Assembly (NCBI RefSeq): GCF_028807635.1
Contig: NZ_JARBAX010000001.1
Coordinates: 633,001-697,000, forward strand
Reading direction: 5' to 3'
Source: Streptomyces spiramyceticus
GTDB taxonomy: Bacteria; Actinomycetota; Actinomycetes; Streptomycetales; Streptomycetaceae
Length of the DNA: 64,000 nt
The position numbers and the translations under genes are program-made. The notes beneath the pieces were generated by a model. It was not told the origin of the DNA, searched no databases, and saw only the letters and a list, made by a program, of their open reading frames with translations. Shown here piece by piece: positions 49,997-55,332 of this stretch (within the stretch, counting starts at the first letter, position 1; each line of letters opens with the position of its first letter).

Positions 49997-50371
49997 TCAG
50001 ACCGCGACGAGGTCGCAGACGAAGATCAGCGTCTCGCCCGGGGCGATGACGCCGCCACCGGCGCCACGGTCGCCGTACGCGAGGTGCGCGGGGATGGTCA
50101 GCCGGCGACGGCCGCCGACCTTCATGCCCTGCACGCCCTCGTCCCAGCCGGAGATGACCTGGCCGGCGCCGAGCTTGAACTCCAGCGGGTTGCCGCGGTT
50201 CCAGGACGCGTCGAACTCCTCGCCCGTGGAGAAGGCCACACCCACGTAGTGGACCTTGACGAAGTCGCCGGCCTTGGCCACCGCGCCGTCGCCCTCCCAG
50301 ATGTCCTCGATCTCCAGATCCTTCGGCGGCTCGCCACCCGGGAAGTCGACCTCGGGCTTCTCGATGCTCAC
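49997..50371 (-). CDS. FKBP-type peptidyl-prolyl isomerase (cytoplasmic)
   Basis: The 124-residue single FKBP domain shows KVHYVGVAFSTGEEFDASWN, FKLGAGQVISGWDEG, MKVGGRRRLTIPAHLAYGDR and LIFVCDLVAV, matching active FKBPs (Tyr, Phe, Asp, Trp, Tyr positions kept). No signal peptide is visible. It catalyses proline cis-trans isomerisation. It lies between the lipoprotein FKBP and pafB, a conserved order in Streptomyces. Confidence 0.95.
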   Translation of the reverse strand: MSIEKPEVDFPGGEPPKDLEIEDIWEGDGAVAKAGDFVKVHYVGVAFSTGEEFDASWNRGNPLEFKLGAGQVISGWDEGVQGMKVGGRRRLTIPAHLAYGDRGAGGGVIAPGETLIFVCDLVAV

Positions 50372-50422: not shown

Positions 50423-51367
50423 TTACATCACGGCGAGGATGTCCACCTGGAAGACCAGCGTCGAGTTGGCGGGGATGGCGTCCTGCTTCTTGTCACCGAA
50501 AGCCTGGTCCGGCGGGATGACGAGGAGGACGCGGCTGCCGACCTTCTTGCCGATCAGACCGTCCTTGAGACCCTTGACCGTGACCTGCGGCAGCGCGAAC
50601 TGCTGGGTCGTGCCCTGGGCGTACGTACTATCGAACAGCTTGGCGCCCTTCCAGATCAGGCCCTGGTAGGCGACGGTCACGGTGTCGGTGTCTTTCACCT
50701 TCGCGCCGTCGCTCTCCAGCACGTAGGAGGAGACGAGCTTCTTCGGCGGGTCGGACTTCTCCGGCACCGTGACCTTCGGCGCCTTGCCGTCGGCATTCGT
50801 GCCGACCTTGGGCAGATCGATGTTGTCCTGCGCGACCTCGGTGCCCTTGGCGGAGACGGGGATGCTCTTGGCCTTCACGATGTCCATCACGAAGACGAGC
50901 GTGGCGTTGGGCTTGATCGACGGTTGCTGGCCCTGCGCGCCGTAGCCGAGTTCCGGCGGGATCGACACCTGCAGGCGGCTGCCGACCTTCTGGCCGTCCA
51001 GTGCCTTCTGCCAGCCCGGGATGACACCGCCGCCACCGATGGTCACCGGATACGGCTCACCTCGGTCGAAACTGTTGTCGAACGGCTTGTCGGAGTCCCA
51101 GGCCTGTCCGAGGTAGTCGACCTGGGCCTGGTCGCCCTTCTTGAGCTTCTGGCCCTTGCCCTCGCTGACGACATTGACCTTGAGTTCCTTGGGCGGATCG
51201 CCCTCGCCCTTGGCCAGGGTGGGCTTCTCGCCGAACTTGGCGCCCGCGGTGATCGCCGGCAGTCCATTCTTTGACGAGGTGGAGTCGGAGCCCTTGTCAT
51301 CATTGCCGCACGCCGCTGTCGAGAGCAGCAGCAGGGGGACGACAAGTAGGCCGGCAAGTCGGCGCAC
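50423..51367 (-). CDS. Two-domain FKBP lipoprotein isomerase
   Basis: The 314-residue lipoprotein has a signal with lipobox LSTAAC (Cys 20), then two FKBP domains (about 75-165: VDYLGQAWDSDKPFDNSFDRGEPY, LGYGAQGQ; and about 215-314: VAYQGLIWKGAKLFDSTY, LLVIPPDQAFGD). It probably assists folding of exported proteins at the cell surface. An adjacent truncated paralogue (51789-52052) lies upstream across the pafA fragment. Confidence 0.93.
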   Translation of the reverse strand: MRRLAGLLVVPLLLLSTAACGNDDKGSDSTSSKNGLPAITAGAKFGEKPTLAKGEGDPPKELKVNVVSEGKGQKLKKGDQAQVDYLGQAWDSDKPFDNSFDRGEPYPVTIGGGGVIPGWQKALDGQKVGSRLQVSIPPELGYGAQGQQPSIKPNATLVFVMDIVKAKSIPVSAKGTEVAQDNIDLPKVGTNADGKAPKVTVPEKSDPPKKLVSSYVLESDGAKVKDTDTVTVAYQGLIWKGAKLFDSTYAQGTTQQFALPQVTVKGLKDGLIGKKVGSRVLLVIPPDQAFGDKKQDAIPANSTLVFQVDILAVM

Positions 51368-51418
51368 GTGTTCCTCAGATCTCAGACGGCACAGTAGTCG
51401 CCCGCCACTCTAAGGCGT

Positions 51419-51457
51419 GGCTCGGGCCCCGCACGAGGAACGTGCGAGGCCCGAGCC
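51419..51457 (-). terminator. Terminator after the pafA fragment
   Basis: GGCTCGGGCC (51419-51428) pairs with GGCCCGAGCC (51448-51457), with an inner CGCAC/GTGCG stem. It lies 52 bases past the duplicated pafA stop and before the FKBP lipoprotein gene. The intact pafA has a hairpin of different sequence at 53905-53953. Confidence 0.75.
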
Positions 51458-51508
51458 GCGTTCCCGCAGAGACCGGAGAGATCCGGAACCGACAGCTCAC
51501 ATACCGGA

Positions 51509-51790
51509 TCACATACCGGCGATGAGTTTCTCCACCCGGTCATCCACCGACCGGAAGGGGTCTTTGCACAAGACGGTGCGCTGCGCCTGGTCGTTGAGCT
51601 TCAGGTGCACCCAGTCGACGGTGAAGTCCCGCCGCTGCTCCTGAGCTCTACGGATGAAGTCGCCGCGCAGCCGCGCCCTGGTGGTCTGCGGCGGCACCGA
51701 CTTGCCCTCGAAGATGTTCGAGGACCTGTTCGACCGTGCCCGTACGAATGCCGCGGCGGTCCACGAAGTCGACAGCCTTTTCGTAGTACT
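51509..51790 (-). pseudogene. pafA 3' fragment with internal deletion
   Basis: Bases 51509-51715 align with intact pafA 53971-54177 (six mismatches), and 51716-51790 align with pafA 54417-54491 (four mismatches); the 239 bases between (54178-54416) are missing, a frameshifting deletion. The first part encodes the last 62 PafA residues with no amino-acid change. No start codon or promoter exists for it. It ends precisely where the truncated FKBP gene's TAG begins. Confidence 0.92.
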
Positions 51791-52052
51791 AACAAACGGA
51801 ATAGTCCATCCGGACGAAGTCGCCCTTCTTGATCTCCGGCCCGCTGCCCTGGGAGACGGTCTTGACTACGGTCTTGTCAGCAGGCTTTGAGTTCTTGGAC
51901 ACGGAGACCTCGGCCTTGTCCCCGAACCTCCCCTTGACCTCGGCCACACCCGCTGCCGAGTCGTTGGGCGAATCGGACCCACACGCGCCGGTGAACAGCA
52001 GGGCGGGCACGGCCAGCAGGGAGGCGATACGTCGCTTGGTGTTGCAGTTCAT
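51789..52052 (-). pseudogene. Truncated FKBP-type lipoprotein fused to the pafA fragment
   Basis: An 87-residue frame has a signal and lipobox (LLAVPALLFTGAC, Cys 24) and the N-terminal linker of an FKBP lipoprotein ([31 protein letters not shown]). It stops at TAG (51791-51789) on the junction with pafA sequence, so the FKBP domain is lost. It differs strongly from the intact FKBP lipoprotein nearby, suggesting an old paralogue. It could still yield a small lipoprotein. Confidence 0.8.
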
Positions 52053-52144
52053 CAGTCCGACTGGGAGTCGAGGCCATGGGAAATGGCGGGCACTCTACGG
52101 TGTGCCGTCGGCTCAGCCATCGATCATTCACGTCAAAGAATGGT

Positions 52145-52168
52145 CCGGCCCCGCACTGGCGGGGCCGG
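52145..52168 (-). terminator. Hairpin terminator of the lipoprotein gene
   Basis: CCGGCCCCGC (52145-52154) pairs perfectly with GCGGGGCCGG (52159-52168) around ACTG, 77 bases beyond the lipoprotein stop. Confidence 0.7.
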
Positions 52169-52244
52169 GGGCGGACCACGGTTCACGAGCCGCCCGCAGT
52201 CGGTCGTATGAGACCGGTACGAGCGGGAAATGCGGGATGGATCG

Positions 52245-52907
52245 TCAGGAAGAGGCCTTCAGCGAGCGGAGCTTGACCTTGAATTCCGCCTTGCTCAGCC
52301 GACTGGCCGGACTGTCGTCCGCCGTGCCGGAGGCGTAGGTCGCGTCCACGAGATACGTGCCCGACTCCAGGTACACGAAGTGCGGCGTGACGGCCGCGGT
52401 GGACTCCGAGTCCACCGCTTCCTGACTGCCGGCGAAGACGAGAAGCTTGTGGCCCTTGGCGAAGGTGCCCTTGGCCGGAGCCTCCTCGGTCACGTACTTC
52501 ACACCGTCCGCGACGCCGCCCATGGAGCGCAACACGATTTCTGAACCGGCCTTCAGACCGCCCTTGTGGACCCTGTCCACGCGCACGACGATCGGGGTGT
52601 AGACGGCCTCGAACGTGGACCCATCGTCGAGCTTGTCGATCACATGCACATCGGGGCGTCGCGAGACGACGGCCCCCTCGAACACGTTGTCGTTCAGCGG
52701 GAACGCAACCGCGGCAGTGGGGTTGCTGTCCACCTTGTAGGAGTGTCCTTCGATGACCCGGGCCGCGGAGGCTTTCCCAGAATCGACCTTCGGGGCGGCG
52801 GCCCCGGTCGAATTACCCGCTCCGGAGCACGCAGAGATACTCAGGGCCACGACCGCGAGAACCGTCGCTGCACCCACGTGGGCCCGCAAGCGCCTCACAT
52901 CATTCAT
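52245..52907 (-). CDS. Lipoprotein of unknown function in the pafA duplication interval
   Basis: The 220-residue protein has a signal with lipobox ISAC (Cys 27, VVALSISACSGAGNS) and a beta-rich C-terminal domain (TPIVVRVDRVHKGGLKAGSEIVLRSMGG, HKLLVFAGSQ, PHFVYLESGTYLVD) that resembles small OB- or cystatin-like secreted domains only in pattern. I recognise no family. ATG 52907 follows GGGGGAGACG. The metalloprotease gene lies 15 bases upstream on the same strand, so they are probably cotranscribed. Confidence 0.7.
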   Translation of the reverse strand: MNDVRRLRAHVGAATVLAVVALSISACSGAGNSTGAAAPKVDSGKASAARVIEGHSYKVDSNPTAAVAFPLNDNVFEGAVVSRRPDVHVIDKLDDGSTFEAVYTPIVVRVDRVHKGGLKAGSEIVLRSMGGVADGVKYVTEEAPAKGTFAKGHKLLVFAGSQEAVDSESTAAVTPHFVYLESGTYLVDATYASGTADDSPASRLSKAEFKVKLRSLKASS

Positions 52908-52922
52908 ATTCGTCTCCCCCGC

Positions 52923-53573
52923 TCAGTAAAGGGCCTTGACGCCAGCAACATCGTCACTGTTGAGCTTGCGTCGGGTACCAGTGATGATGGTGGTCATGAC
53001 CGATTTCTTCTCGGCCGCGGTGTAGGGCGTGTGATCGGAGCAGTGGTCCGGCCACGGGTGTGCGAGGCCAGTGAAGTGGCCTACCTCGTGCACGACGACG
53101 GTCTGAACGTCGGCTCTTTTGGCATTGATGTTCTGGCTGCCATTCACCCATGTGAACCTGTTGGAAAGGATGAGCGCTCCACCCGTGTGTCGACCGCGGC
53201 TGACGTTCGTCAAGGCCACGCCGGGCGAAACTCCCATGAGCTGGCTGTAGCTGTGGGACGCGCGGAAGGCGTAGACCTGCCATCCGCTCGTGTATGTGGG
53301 AGCGGCATAGCGCAGCCCGGAGCCACTGCGGTTCCACTGAGTCAGGCCGCCCTTGAGGCCGTTCCTGAGGTTGCGCGGGAAGTTAGCCTTCGCGGCCAGC
53401 TGCTTGGTTCCGGAAGTCTTCCACTTCACCATCCCGGTTCTGCAGTAGGCCGACGCAGGTGATGCCGCGATTCCTACGAGGCCTGTGGCGAGTACGGTCC
53501 CGGCCACGCCGAGAACGAGCGCTTTCCGTCCCCCCTTAACTACAGGTCGAACGGGTATTCGAGTGGTTCGCAT
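52923..53573 (-). CDS. Secreted matrixin-like zinc metalloprotease
   Basis: The 216-residue protein has a signal peptide (KALVLGVAGTVLATGLVGIAASPASA, about 16-41), then a short protease domain with the zincin motif VVHEVGHFTGLAHPW (HExxHxxGxxH, about 164-174) and a Met-turn-like SVMTTIITG about 25 residues later. This is the metzincin layout of matrixin/M10-like peptidases. Two Cys (about 44 and 184) may pair. It is likely active outside the cell. It lies in the pafA duplication interval. Confidence 0.85.
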   Translation of the reverse strand: MRTTRIPVRPVVKGGRKALVLGVAGTVLATGLVGIAASPASAYCRTGMVKWKTSGTKQLAAKANFPRNLRNGLKGGLTQWNRSGSGLRYAAPTYTSGWQVYAFRASHSYSQLMGVSPGVALTNVSRGRHTGGALILSNRFTWVNGSQNINAKRADVQTVVVHEVGHFTGLAHPWPDHCSDHTPYTAAEKKSVMTTIITGTRRKLNSDDVAGVKALY

Positions 53574-53970
53574 TGTTCCCCCTGCTCGGTCGGATCGATT
53601 CCCGTCCGTTCGACTACCTGAGACGTGAGGGCGAGTACCCCGAACCCCCCTACGAGGCAAGCGAACTGGCGGTGCGGCGACACTAACAACGACCCCCTTG
53701 GACCCAACTCGTCCGGCGCACCCCGACGGGAAAGTGCCGCGCGCCGATCCGCACGCCGAGCCGTGCGCCGTGCTAGAGATCCATAGTCCGGTTTGAGTCA
53801 TTAGTGCCTTTGAATCACAGCGCCTCCGTCGACCCCCTCGAGGAATGCGACATTCCGCCCATCCGCAGCACACTCACAGTGCGTGACATGTCTCTCACGC
53901 AAAAGGCCGCCCGGTGTGCGGGGACGGAAAGAGCCCCCGGACACCGGGCGGCCGCTGCCACCCCGTCGGC
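53574..53970. other. 397-base gap between metalloprotease gene and pafA
   Basis: No gene is seen. The gap holds the metalloprotease promoter region near 53600-53800, A+T-richer bases at 53800-53890, and the pafA terminator at 53905-53953. The gap ends at the pafA stop (53971). Confidence 0.6.
53905..53953 (-). terminator. pafA terminator
   Basis: GGCCGCCCGGTGT (53905-53917) pairs exactly with ACACCGGGCGGCC (53941-53953), with an inner GGGG/CCCC stem in the loop, 18 bases past the pafA stop. Confidence 0.8.
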
Positions 53971-55332
53971 TCACATACCGGCGATGAGTTTCTCCACCCG
54001 GTCGTCCACCGAACGGAAGGGGTCTTTGCACAACACCGTGCGCTGCGCCTGGTCGTTGAGCTTGAGGTGCACCCAGTCGACGGTGAAGTCCCGCCGCTGC
54101 TCCTGAGCTCTTCGGATGAAGTCGCCGCGCAGCCGCGCCCTGGTGGTCTGCGGCGGCACCGACTTGCCCTCGAAGATTTTCAAGTCGTTGCAGATACGGG
54201 CGGCTTGCCCCTTCTTCTCCAGCAGGTAGTAGAGCCCGCGCCGGCGGTGAATGTCGTGATACGCGAGGTCTATCTGCGCGACCCGGGGATGCGACATGGT
54301 CATGTTGTGCTTGGCCCGGTACCGCTCGATGAGCTTGTACTTCATGACCCAGTCGATCTCGGTGCCGATCCGGTCGAGGTCCTCGGCCTCGATCGCGTCG
54401 AGCGAACGGCCCCACAGTTCGAGGACCTGTTCGACGATGCCCGTACGGATACCGCGGCGGTCCACGAAGTCGACAGCCTTTTCGTAGTACTCGCGCTGTA
54501 CCTCTATGGCGGACGCCTCGCGCCCGCTGGCCAGGCGCACCTTGCGCTGCCCGGTGGTGTCGTGGCTGACCTCACGGATGGCCCTGATCGGGTTCTCCAG
54601 GGTGAGGTCGCGCATGACCGTGCCCGCCTCGATCATGCGCAGTACGAGGTCGGTGGCGCCGACCTTGAGCAGCATGGTCGTCTCGGACATGTTCGAGTCG
54701 CCGACGATGACGTGGAGCCTGCGGTAGCGCTCGGCGTCCGCGTGCGGTTCGTCGCGGGTGTTGATGATCGGCCGGGAGCGAGTGGTCGCGGAGCTGACGC
54801 CCTCCCAGATGTGCTCGGCGCGCTGGCTGACGCAGAAGACCGCGCCACGCGGGGTCTGCAGCACCTTGCCGGCGCCGCAGATCAGCTGGCGCGTGACGAG
54901 GAACGGGATGAGGATGTCCGCCAGCCGGGAGAACTCTCCGTGACGGGCCACCAGGTAATTCTCGTGGCAGCCGTATGAGTTTCCCGCAGAGTCGGTGTTG
55001 TTCTTGAAGAGATAGACGTCGCCCGCGATTCCCTCCTCGTGCAGGCGGCGTTCGGCGTCGACGAGCAGGCCTTCGAGAATGCGCTCGCCCGCTTTGTCGT
55101 GGGTGACGAGCTCGGTCACATTGTCGCATTCGGGGGTTGCGTATTCCGGATGCGATCCCACGTCGAGGTAGAGGCGGGCGCCGTTCCGCAGGAAGACATT
55201 GCTGCTGCGGCCCCATGACACAACACGGCGGAAGAGGTAGCGCGCCACTTCGTCAGGTGACAGTCGGCGCTGTCCCCTGAACGTGCACGTGACGCCGTAC
55301 TCGTTCTCCAGCCCGAAAATGCGGCGATCCAT
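53971..55332 (-). CDS. pafA: Pup-protein ligase PafA
   Basis: The 453-residue protein has the glutamine-synthetase-like ligase fold of Paf[14 protein letters not shown] (about 4-16), [68 protein letters not shown], and a C-terminal domain ending [10 protein letters not shown]. It uses ATP to link the Pup C-terminal Glu to substrate lysines. It is intact; its 3' end is duplicated 2,462 bases downstream. ATG 55332 overlaps nothing. Confidence 0.97.

Follow-up and report, generated by a model that had tools for sequence, protein, structure and literature searches.

The Duplicated pafA 3' End and Its Surroundings

The stretch of DNA considered in this study (the window) consists of 64,000 nucleotides of Streptomyces spiramyceticus, positions 633001–697000 of contig 1 in a genome of 7.08 Mb present as two contigs. 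It contains pafA, a housekeeping gene whose product tags proteins destined for the proteasome, and also a broken second copy of the 3' end of that gene, the subject of this report. On the minus strand the order is intact pafA, a matrixin gene, a lipoprotein gene, a stub of one FKBP gene (FKBP-B), the pafA remnant, a second FKBP gene (FKBP-A), fkbC, pafB, and pafC (Table 1). The names pafB (a gene with a WYL domain), pafC, and prcA are ones I presume from position and family.

The intact pafA covers positions 1–441 of the 441 in PF03136, i.e., the full Pup-ligase domain. The remnant amounts to 282 bp of the 1362-bp gene, in two pieces that together begin at about codon 281 and end with the stop codon. 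Between the pieces 239 bp are gone (54178–54416 of the intact gene), a number that is not a multiple of three and so shifts the frame. There are no small insertions or deletions inside either aligned piece, and the point at which they meet (51715/51716) shows no trustworthy microhomology. A second working pafA is ruled out by the length of the remnant and its frameshift. The working pafA is intact, and the remnant has no demonstrated bearing on proteasome function. When a 581-base query (51480–52060) was searched against the whole genome (E ≤ 0.001), the only matches apart from the query's own position were to intact pafA, in two pieces. The match of one 218-base piece to intact pafA has an E-value of 2.2e-97, which excludes chance resemblance. 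An error of assembly is an unlikely source of the repeat, because ten bases distinguish the copies and their flanks are unlike.

The preliminary description of this DNA had reported the longer piece as a repeat identical at 201 of 207 bases, and re-alignment bore this out. Its count of 62 identical residues falls short, as there are 68 plus the stop codon, and the extent it gave to the duplication is right as far as it goes but overlooks the second piece, the truncation of FKBP-B, and the nature of the intervening genes as a cassette. Its claim that the copies differ only synonymously holds within the 207 bp, where all six differences are silent and in third positions, but not over the entire 282 bp, where ten bases differ and codon 299 is changed in meaning.

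Table 1 Features between intact pafA and fkbC. Positions are those of the window. L numbers denote loci read in other genomes (L033, Streptomyces sp. ISL-1; L041 and L045, two of the sister species introduced below).
Feature	Position	Strand	Basis
Intact pafA (Pup ligase, 453 aa)	53971..55332	-	Pfam PF03136, E 5.9e-167
Spacer 3' of intact pafA, ISL-1 (rare-version) type	53574..53970		69% to L033 over 98%
Cassette matrixin-type metalloprotease, 216 aa, HEVGHFTGLAH	52923..53573	-	Pfam PF00413, E 1.2e-8
Cassette lipoprotein, 220 aa, without Pfam family	52245..52907	-	Start read by eye; source name of relative P0152
Truncated FKBP-B lipoprotein gene, 87-codon frame, protein start only	51789..52052	-	79% over residues 1-86 to Streptomyces sp. 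ISL-1 (L033)
Joint of FKBP-B (codon ~86) and pafA (codon ~281)	51789..51795		L033 FKBP-B homology stops and pafA homology starts at ~51791
pafA remnant, 5' piece, codons ~281-306	51716..51790	-	71/75 bases identical to 54417-54491
pafA remnant, 3' piece, codons 386-453 and stop	51509..51715	-	201/207 bases identical to 53971-54177
Spacer 3' of remnant, common-version type	51368..51508		51368-51504: 92% to L041 over 73%, 95% to L045 over 70%
FKBP-A lipoprotein peptidyl-prolyl isomerase (PPIase), common version, 314 aa, two FKBP_C stretches	50423..51367	-	Pfam PF00254
fkbC (my own label), small FKBP PPIase found after both versions	49997..50371	-	Pfam PF00254 and gene order

The histidine-rich motif of the matrixin fits the zinc-binding pattern HExxHxxGxxH. 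A search with the cassette lipoprotein found 12 proteins at E ≤ 1e-10, its own included, and its cluster (P0153) has two member sequences. The FKBP-B stub contains no FKBP domain and has no Pfam match at E ≤ 0.001, and there is no clear microhomology where it meets pafA. I considered a mobile element as the source of the insert and set it aside: megablast of 51480–53600 against a plasmid collection gave no match. No recombinase was recognized by Pfam among the insert's three plausible genes (matrixin, lipoprotein, FKBP-B stub), which were the frames scanned.

Versions of the Locus in Related Streptomyces

Sixty related pafA loci were read, picked as best hits rather than at random (a further one, L040, comes from the same genome as L034). 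They show two versions. The common one has FKBP-A and fkbC after pafA; in 55 of the 60, an FKBP lipoprotein gene lies 113–767 bases after pafA, followed by fkbC and pafB. The rare one, pafA–matrixin–lipoprotein–FKBP-B-type gene–fkbC without FKBP-A, is the arrangement of all five other loci that bear a matrixin gene: L033 (ISL-1), L034 (S. albiflavescens), L035 (S. phaeofaciens), L039, and L155. The FKBP gene starts of these five are 57–79% identical to the FKBP-B stub of the window (57–67% for the four other than ISL-1). FKBP-B-like genes can also follow pafA without a matrixin gene, as in L089–L093. The matrixin protein itself is scarce, present in three of 392 genomes of the genus, the host's included (E ≤ 1e-30; in another genome survey 11 of 394 genomes were not scorable).

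Only in the window, among the loci read, do both versions stand in tandem. None of the 60 other loci has a pafA piece between pafA and the FKBP gene (blastn, E ≤ 1e-5, at which very short pieces could escape). The 42 extra pafA pieces that do occur in them all lie at locus ends, within a paralogue of pafA (~27–42% identity) upstream of prcA that is presumably dop. The joint was also sought in 391 other genomes, and none of the matches listed crosses it. The best (337 bits, as against 1049 for the window itself) spans 18–243 of a query in which the joint lies at about 312, and is thus confined to the pafA part.

As a side observation, pafA and FKBP-A are separated in genome G170 by about 13 kb (L172:3500–16694) in which several open frames, judged by reading, look like transposase genes, so the spacer between these genes has taken insertions elsewhere too.

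Sequences That Flank the Two Copies

The nearest relatives over the flanks are four species (L041, L045, L152, and L153), to which I will refer as the sister species. They are 92.0–93.5% identical to the window in pafB and 92.9–94.6% in prcA, as compared to at most 87.7% and 90.9%, respectively, for the next-nearest loci read. All four carry the common version. They are likewise nearest of the loci read in FKBP-A DNA (86–87%, the next being 82%).

The stop codon of intact pafA is followed directly by a spacer of the ISL-1 type, while the remnant is followed by one of the sister type. The two copies therefore sit in different locus versions. A tandem duplication would be expected to place the same sequence after both copies, and what is found is two spacers that differ in type.

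Differences between the Two Copies

The sister species, together with 56 other loci, served to polarize the ten differing bases. Changes on the side of the remnant fall in codons 295, 423, 433, and 443, plus codon 407, which changed in both copies, and all five are silent. Changes on the side of the intact gene fall in codons 294, 299 (two bases), 432, and 440, again plus 407. The nonsynonymous difference is that at codon 299 (54436–54438), where the intact gene has ATC (Ile) and the remnant ACG (Thr). As Thr is the residue in each of the four sister species, the change belongs to the working gene.

A random mutation in the remnant would be silent 24–36% of the time, depending on the assumed mutation bias. 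Under neutral decay, the probability that five of five changes are silent is 0.0007–0.006 (0.003–0.016 for the four clear ones). The uncorrected synonymous difference is 0.13 between the copies, as compared to 0.25–0.39 from either copy to the sister species. A remnant with a synonymous difference of 0.13 and no nonsynonymous change of its own does not have the appearance of a copy in decay, and the proposal in the preliminary description that both copies evolved as functional pafA genes gains support from these silent changes.

A Probable Exchange between Two Versions of the Locus

The region probably represents the scar of a single illegitimate joint between alternative pafA–fkbC versions of closely related Streptomyces. 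The break in the rare version (pafA–matrixin–lipoprotein–FKBP-B) would have fallen near codon 86 of FKBP-B and that in the common version (pafA–FKBP-A) near codon 281 of pafA, with the two breaks then joined end to end and the chromosome restored by a homologous exchange located in pafA or farther upstream. Two routes would be likeliest. In one, a donor fragment circularized and then entered through a single crossover in pafA; the other is homology-facilitated illegitimate recombination (HFIR) of the one-sided kind. The former is at least as good as the latter, because recipient sequence was duplicated rather than lost. In the product, an intact pafA would be followed first by the matrixin and lipoprotein genes, then by the dead start of FKBP-B and the dead end of pafA, and finally by the old FKBP-A, and the 239-bp deletion in the remnant could have arisen at the same time or afterwards. 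It may be predicted that the direct 207-bp repeats would permit 2,462 bp to loop out, giving the common layout pafA–FKBP-A. The anatomy, the existence of the two versions, the unlike flanks, and the purely silent divergence of the remnant are observed; end joining, the position of the crossover, the choice of incomer, and the capacity to loop out are what I infer. End joining is at least possible in this host, since its genome has two Ku genes. On the side of the presumed homologous exchange, the ISL-1-type spacer comes right after the intact pafA, but the two versions of pafA are too alike for the crossover to be placed. The proposal that the 2,462-bp interval is a footprint of recombination, made in the preliminary description, agrees with the gene orders and the differing flanks.

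I take the rare version to be the incomer, because all four sister species carry the common one. That the two copies are sisters (see below) implies a donor whose pafA closely resembled that of the recipient, and the rare cassette was thus probably already in a near relative.

Several observations weigh against an exchange of this kind, or against its details. One is the pafA tree, built on 282 shared columns and 62 rows (60 loci plus the two copies in the window; L040, L108, with 101 bp, and L170, without pafA in its stretch, were left out). It groups the remnant and the intact copy as sisters with support of 100/98. The preliminary description had looked for the fragment in a different clade from the intact gene, and this is not where it falls; the sister grouping found instead is the first half of what it had named as grounds for giving up transfer. 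A distant lineage as the origin of either copy is unsupported by the tree. The tree is itself weak at 282 bp, as placing either copy with the sister species is not rejected: forcing one copy alone to join them costs 21.5 log-likelihood units for the remnant and 16.1 for the intact copy, with p-AU (approximately unbiased test) values of 0.18 and 0.20. The silent-change test has five changes behind it in all. Among the loci compared, the spacer after intact pafA has no match at E ≤ 1e-3 outside L033, the rare-version loci L034/L040, L035, and L039 included. In the sets searched, which may omit records very near the window, no donor turned up that has the whole of the rare version together with a near-identical pafA; the best other matrixin protein is 85% identical over 78% of the query. 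Because of that possible omission, the missing donor is weak evidence.

FKBP-A, moreover, is a mosaic. Residues 63–165, the first FKBP domain, match Streptomyces sp. NPDC020681 at 89/102, as compared to 72/103 for each sister species, and the rest of the protein is nearer the sister species. The fkbC gene is up to 92.6% identical to several other loci but 87.6–90.2% identical to the four sister species, and from these sequences it too may be a mosaic left by a further small exchange. Given the one mosaic and possibly the other, the terms "resident" and "incoming" do not apply cleanly.

Nine states are common to both copies and absent in every one of the four sister species. Seven are seldom found among the remaining 56 loci (0–6/56) and are probably derived, that at codon 287 is ambiguous (22/56), and that at codon 388 is the usual one (52/56), the sister species having changed instead. 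Taken with the sister grouping and the low synonymous difference, the shared states indicate that the two lineages were close relatives.

I have not relied on the idea that the cassette as a whole came recently from an ISL-1-like donor, since the synonymous comparison is mixed between genes. The lipoprotein gene and FKBP-B stub together differ from ISL-1 at 52.5 of 236 synonymous sites, as against 381 of 1014 in prcA, MFS, pafB, and pafC (Fisher p 4.7e-6, or 2.2e-4 when pafA and fkbC are added to the background, fkbC being a gene that shows gene-to-gene variation in synonymous divergence). In matrixin the synonymous difference equals the background (p 0.73), a further point on the contrary side, which gives no support to a recent arrival of this gene from an ISL-1-like lineage.

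Other Explanations of the Remnant

The least unlikely of the other explanations is a sub-case of the exchange itself, with which its chances overlap, but run in reverse: a resident with the rare version received the pafA 3' end, FKBP-A, and fkbC, and FKBP-B was broken in the process. The joint is symmetrical and would look the same, and the window's FKBP-A and fkbC are further from the sister species than its pafB is. The reverse direction is nonetheless rather unlikely, in view of the common version in all four sister species and the sister-type spacer and sister-type sequence at both ends of FKBP-A.

Gene conversion may have been laid over the exchange (again, the two overlap), such that copies derived from lineages further apart were homogenized later. 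Conversion is plausible between repeats of 200 bp and would explain how sister copies come to have unlike flanks. I consider it improbable: the differences are scattered over both pieces, with no single unconverted block, and the shared states would need to be products of conversion.

More doubtful still is a duplication that copied the pafA 3' end locally, within one genome, followed by decay of the copy and separate arrival of the matrixin and lipoprotein genes. This is what the sister grouping and the nine shared states, seven of them probably derived, would suggest if considered by themselves. It does not account for downstream sequences that differ and that each match another version of the locus, for five of five silent changes on the side of the remnant without small insertions or deletions in the aligned pieces, or for an FKBP-B stub, fused to the remnant, that has relatives after pafA elsewhere. 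A merodiploid, in which single-crossover integration left two full working pafA genes in tandem that gathered silent changes before one was truncated, accounts jointly for the silent-only divergence and the sister grouping and would produce the direct repeats, but it requires a long-lived redundant copy plus further deletions, and in none of the 60 other loci does pafA have a second copy next to it, apart from the upstream paralogue, so that it too has little to recommend it.

Relation to Known Systems

HFIR and circularization with single-crossover integration are both named as fates of linear DNA (PMC3240628). There, a homologous event paired with an illegitimate one brings in a short foreign stretch, which is the form proposed here. 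The joint at about 51791 shows no clear microhomology between donor and recipient, and homologues of the insert lie at the matching place in all five other matrixin loci. The scar differs in being read from sequence alone, in Streptomyces, and in having the recipient's 3' end duplicated. In Vibrio cholerae, incoming effector–immunity modules of the type VI secretion system clusters are proposed to be anchored by a conserved upstream stretch and to displace one another in sequence, with displaced 3' parts staying downstream (PMC5361080). The conserved anchor and the 3' leftovers downstream resemble the scar, which, however, contains no effector–immunity genes: it concerns a matrixin–lipoprotein–FKBP module beside the pupylation genes, and a single event. 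Accessory genes are often transferred between conspecific Streptomyces (PMC6722414, from the part available), where the concern is with insertions and deletions and with conjugative elements, whereas the scar is an exchange of a small cassette that duplicated the end of a core gene, with no recombinase gene seen. Among the titles listed in a limited literature search, none concerned this locus.

The mechanism thus appears to be a known one with a clear new example, the fossil of a gene exchange rather than a second working gene. The scar would show how the neighborhood of a core gene gains an alternative cassette, by way of a homologous anchor and a blunt joint, with a duplicated 3' end left over. 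It also illustrates that polarizing the differences and comparing the flanks of each copy can tell exchange between lineages from local duplication, even for copies that a tree groups as sisters.

More tentatively, and with the balance somewhat against it, the interval between pafA and fkbC could be a standing site of exchange in Streptomyces, at which alternative cassettes for secreted proteins (FKBP-A or FKBP-B by itself, or matrixin–lipoprotein–FKBP-B) swap via recombination anchored in the conserved pafA. If so, the window would represent an unresolved and reversible stage that could go back to the common form through exchange between the two pafA repeats.

A minor observation concerns the cassette genes. 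Eight of the 12 lipoprotein matches, the window's included, appear to share a genome with a matrixin match, and in all five other loci the two genes occur together, the lipoprotein gene lying between matrixin and the FKBP gene. The pair may represent a secreted protease and its partner.

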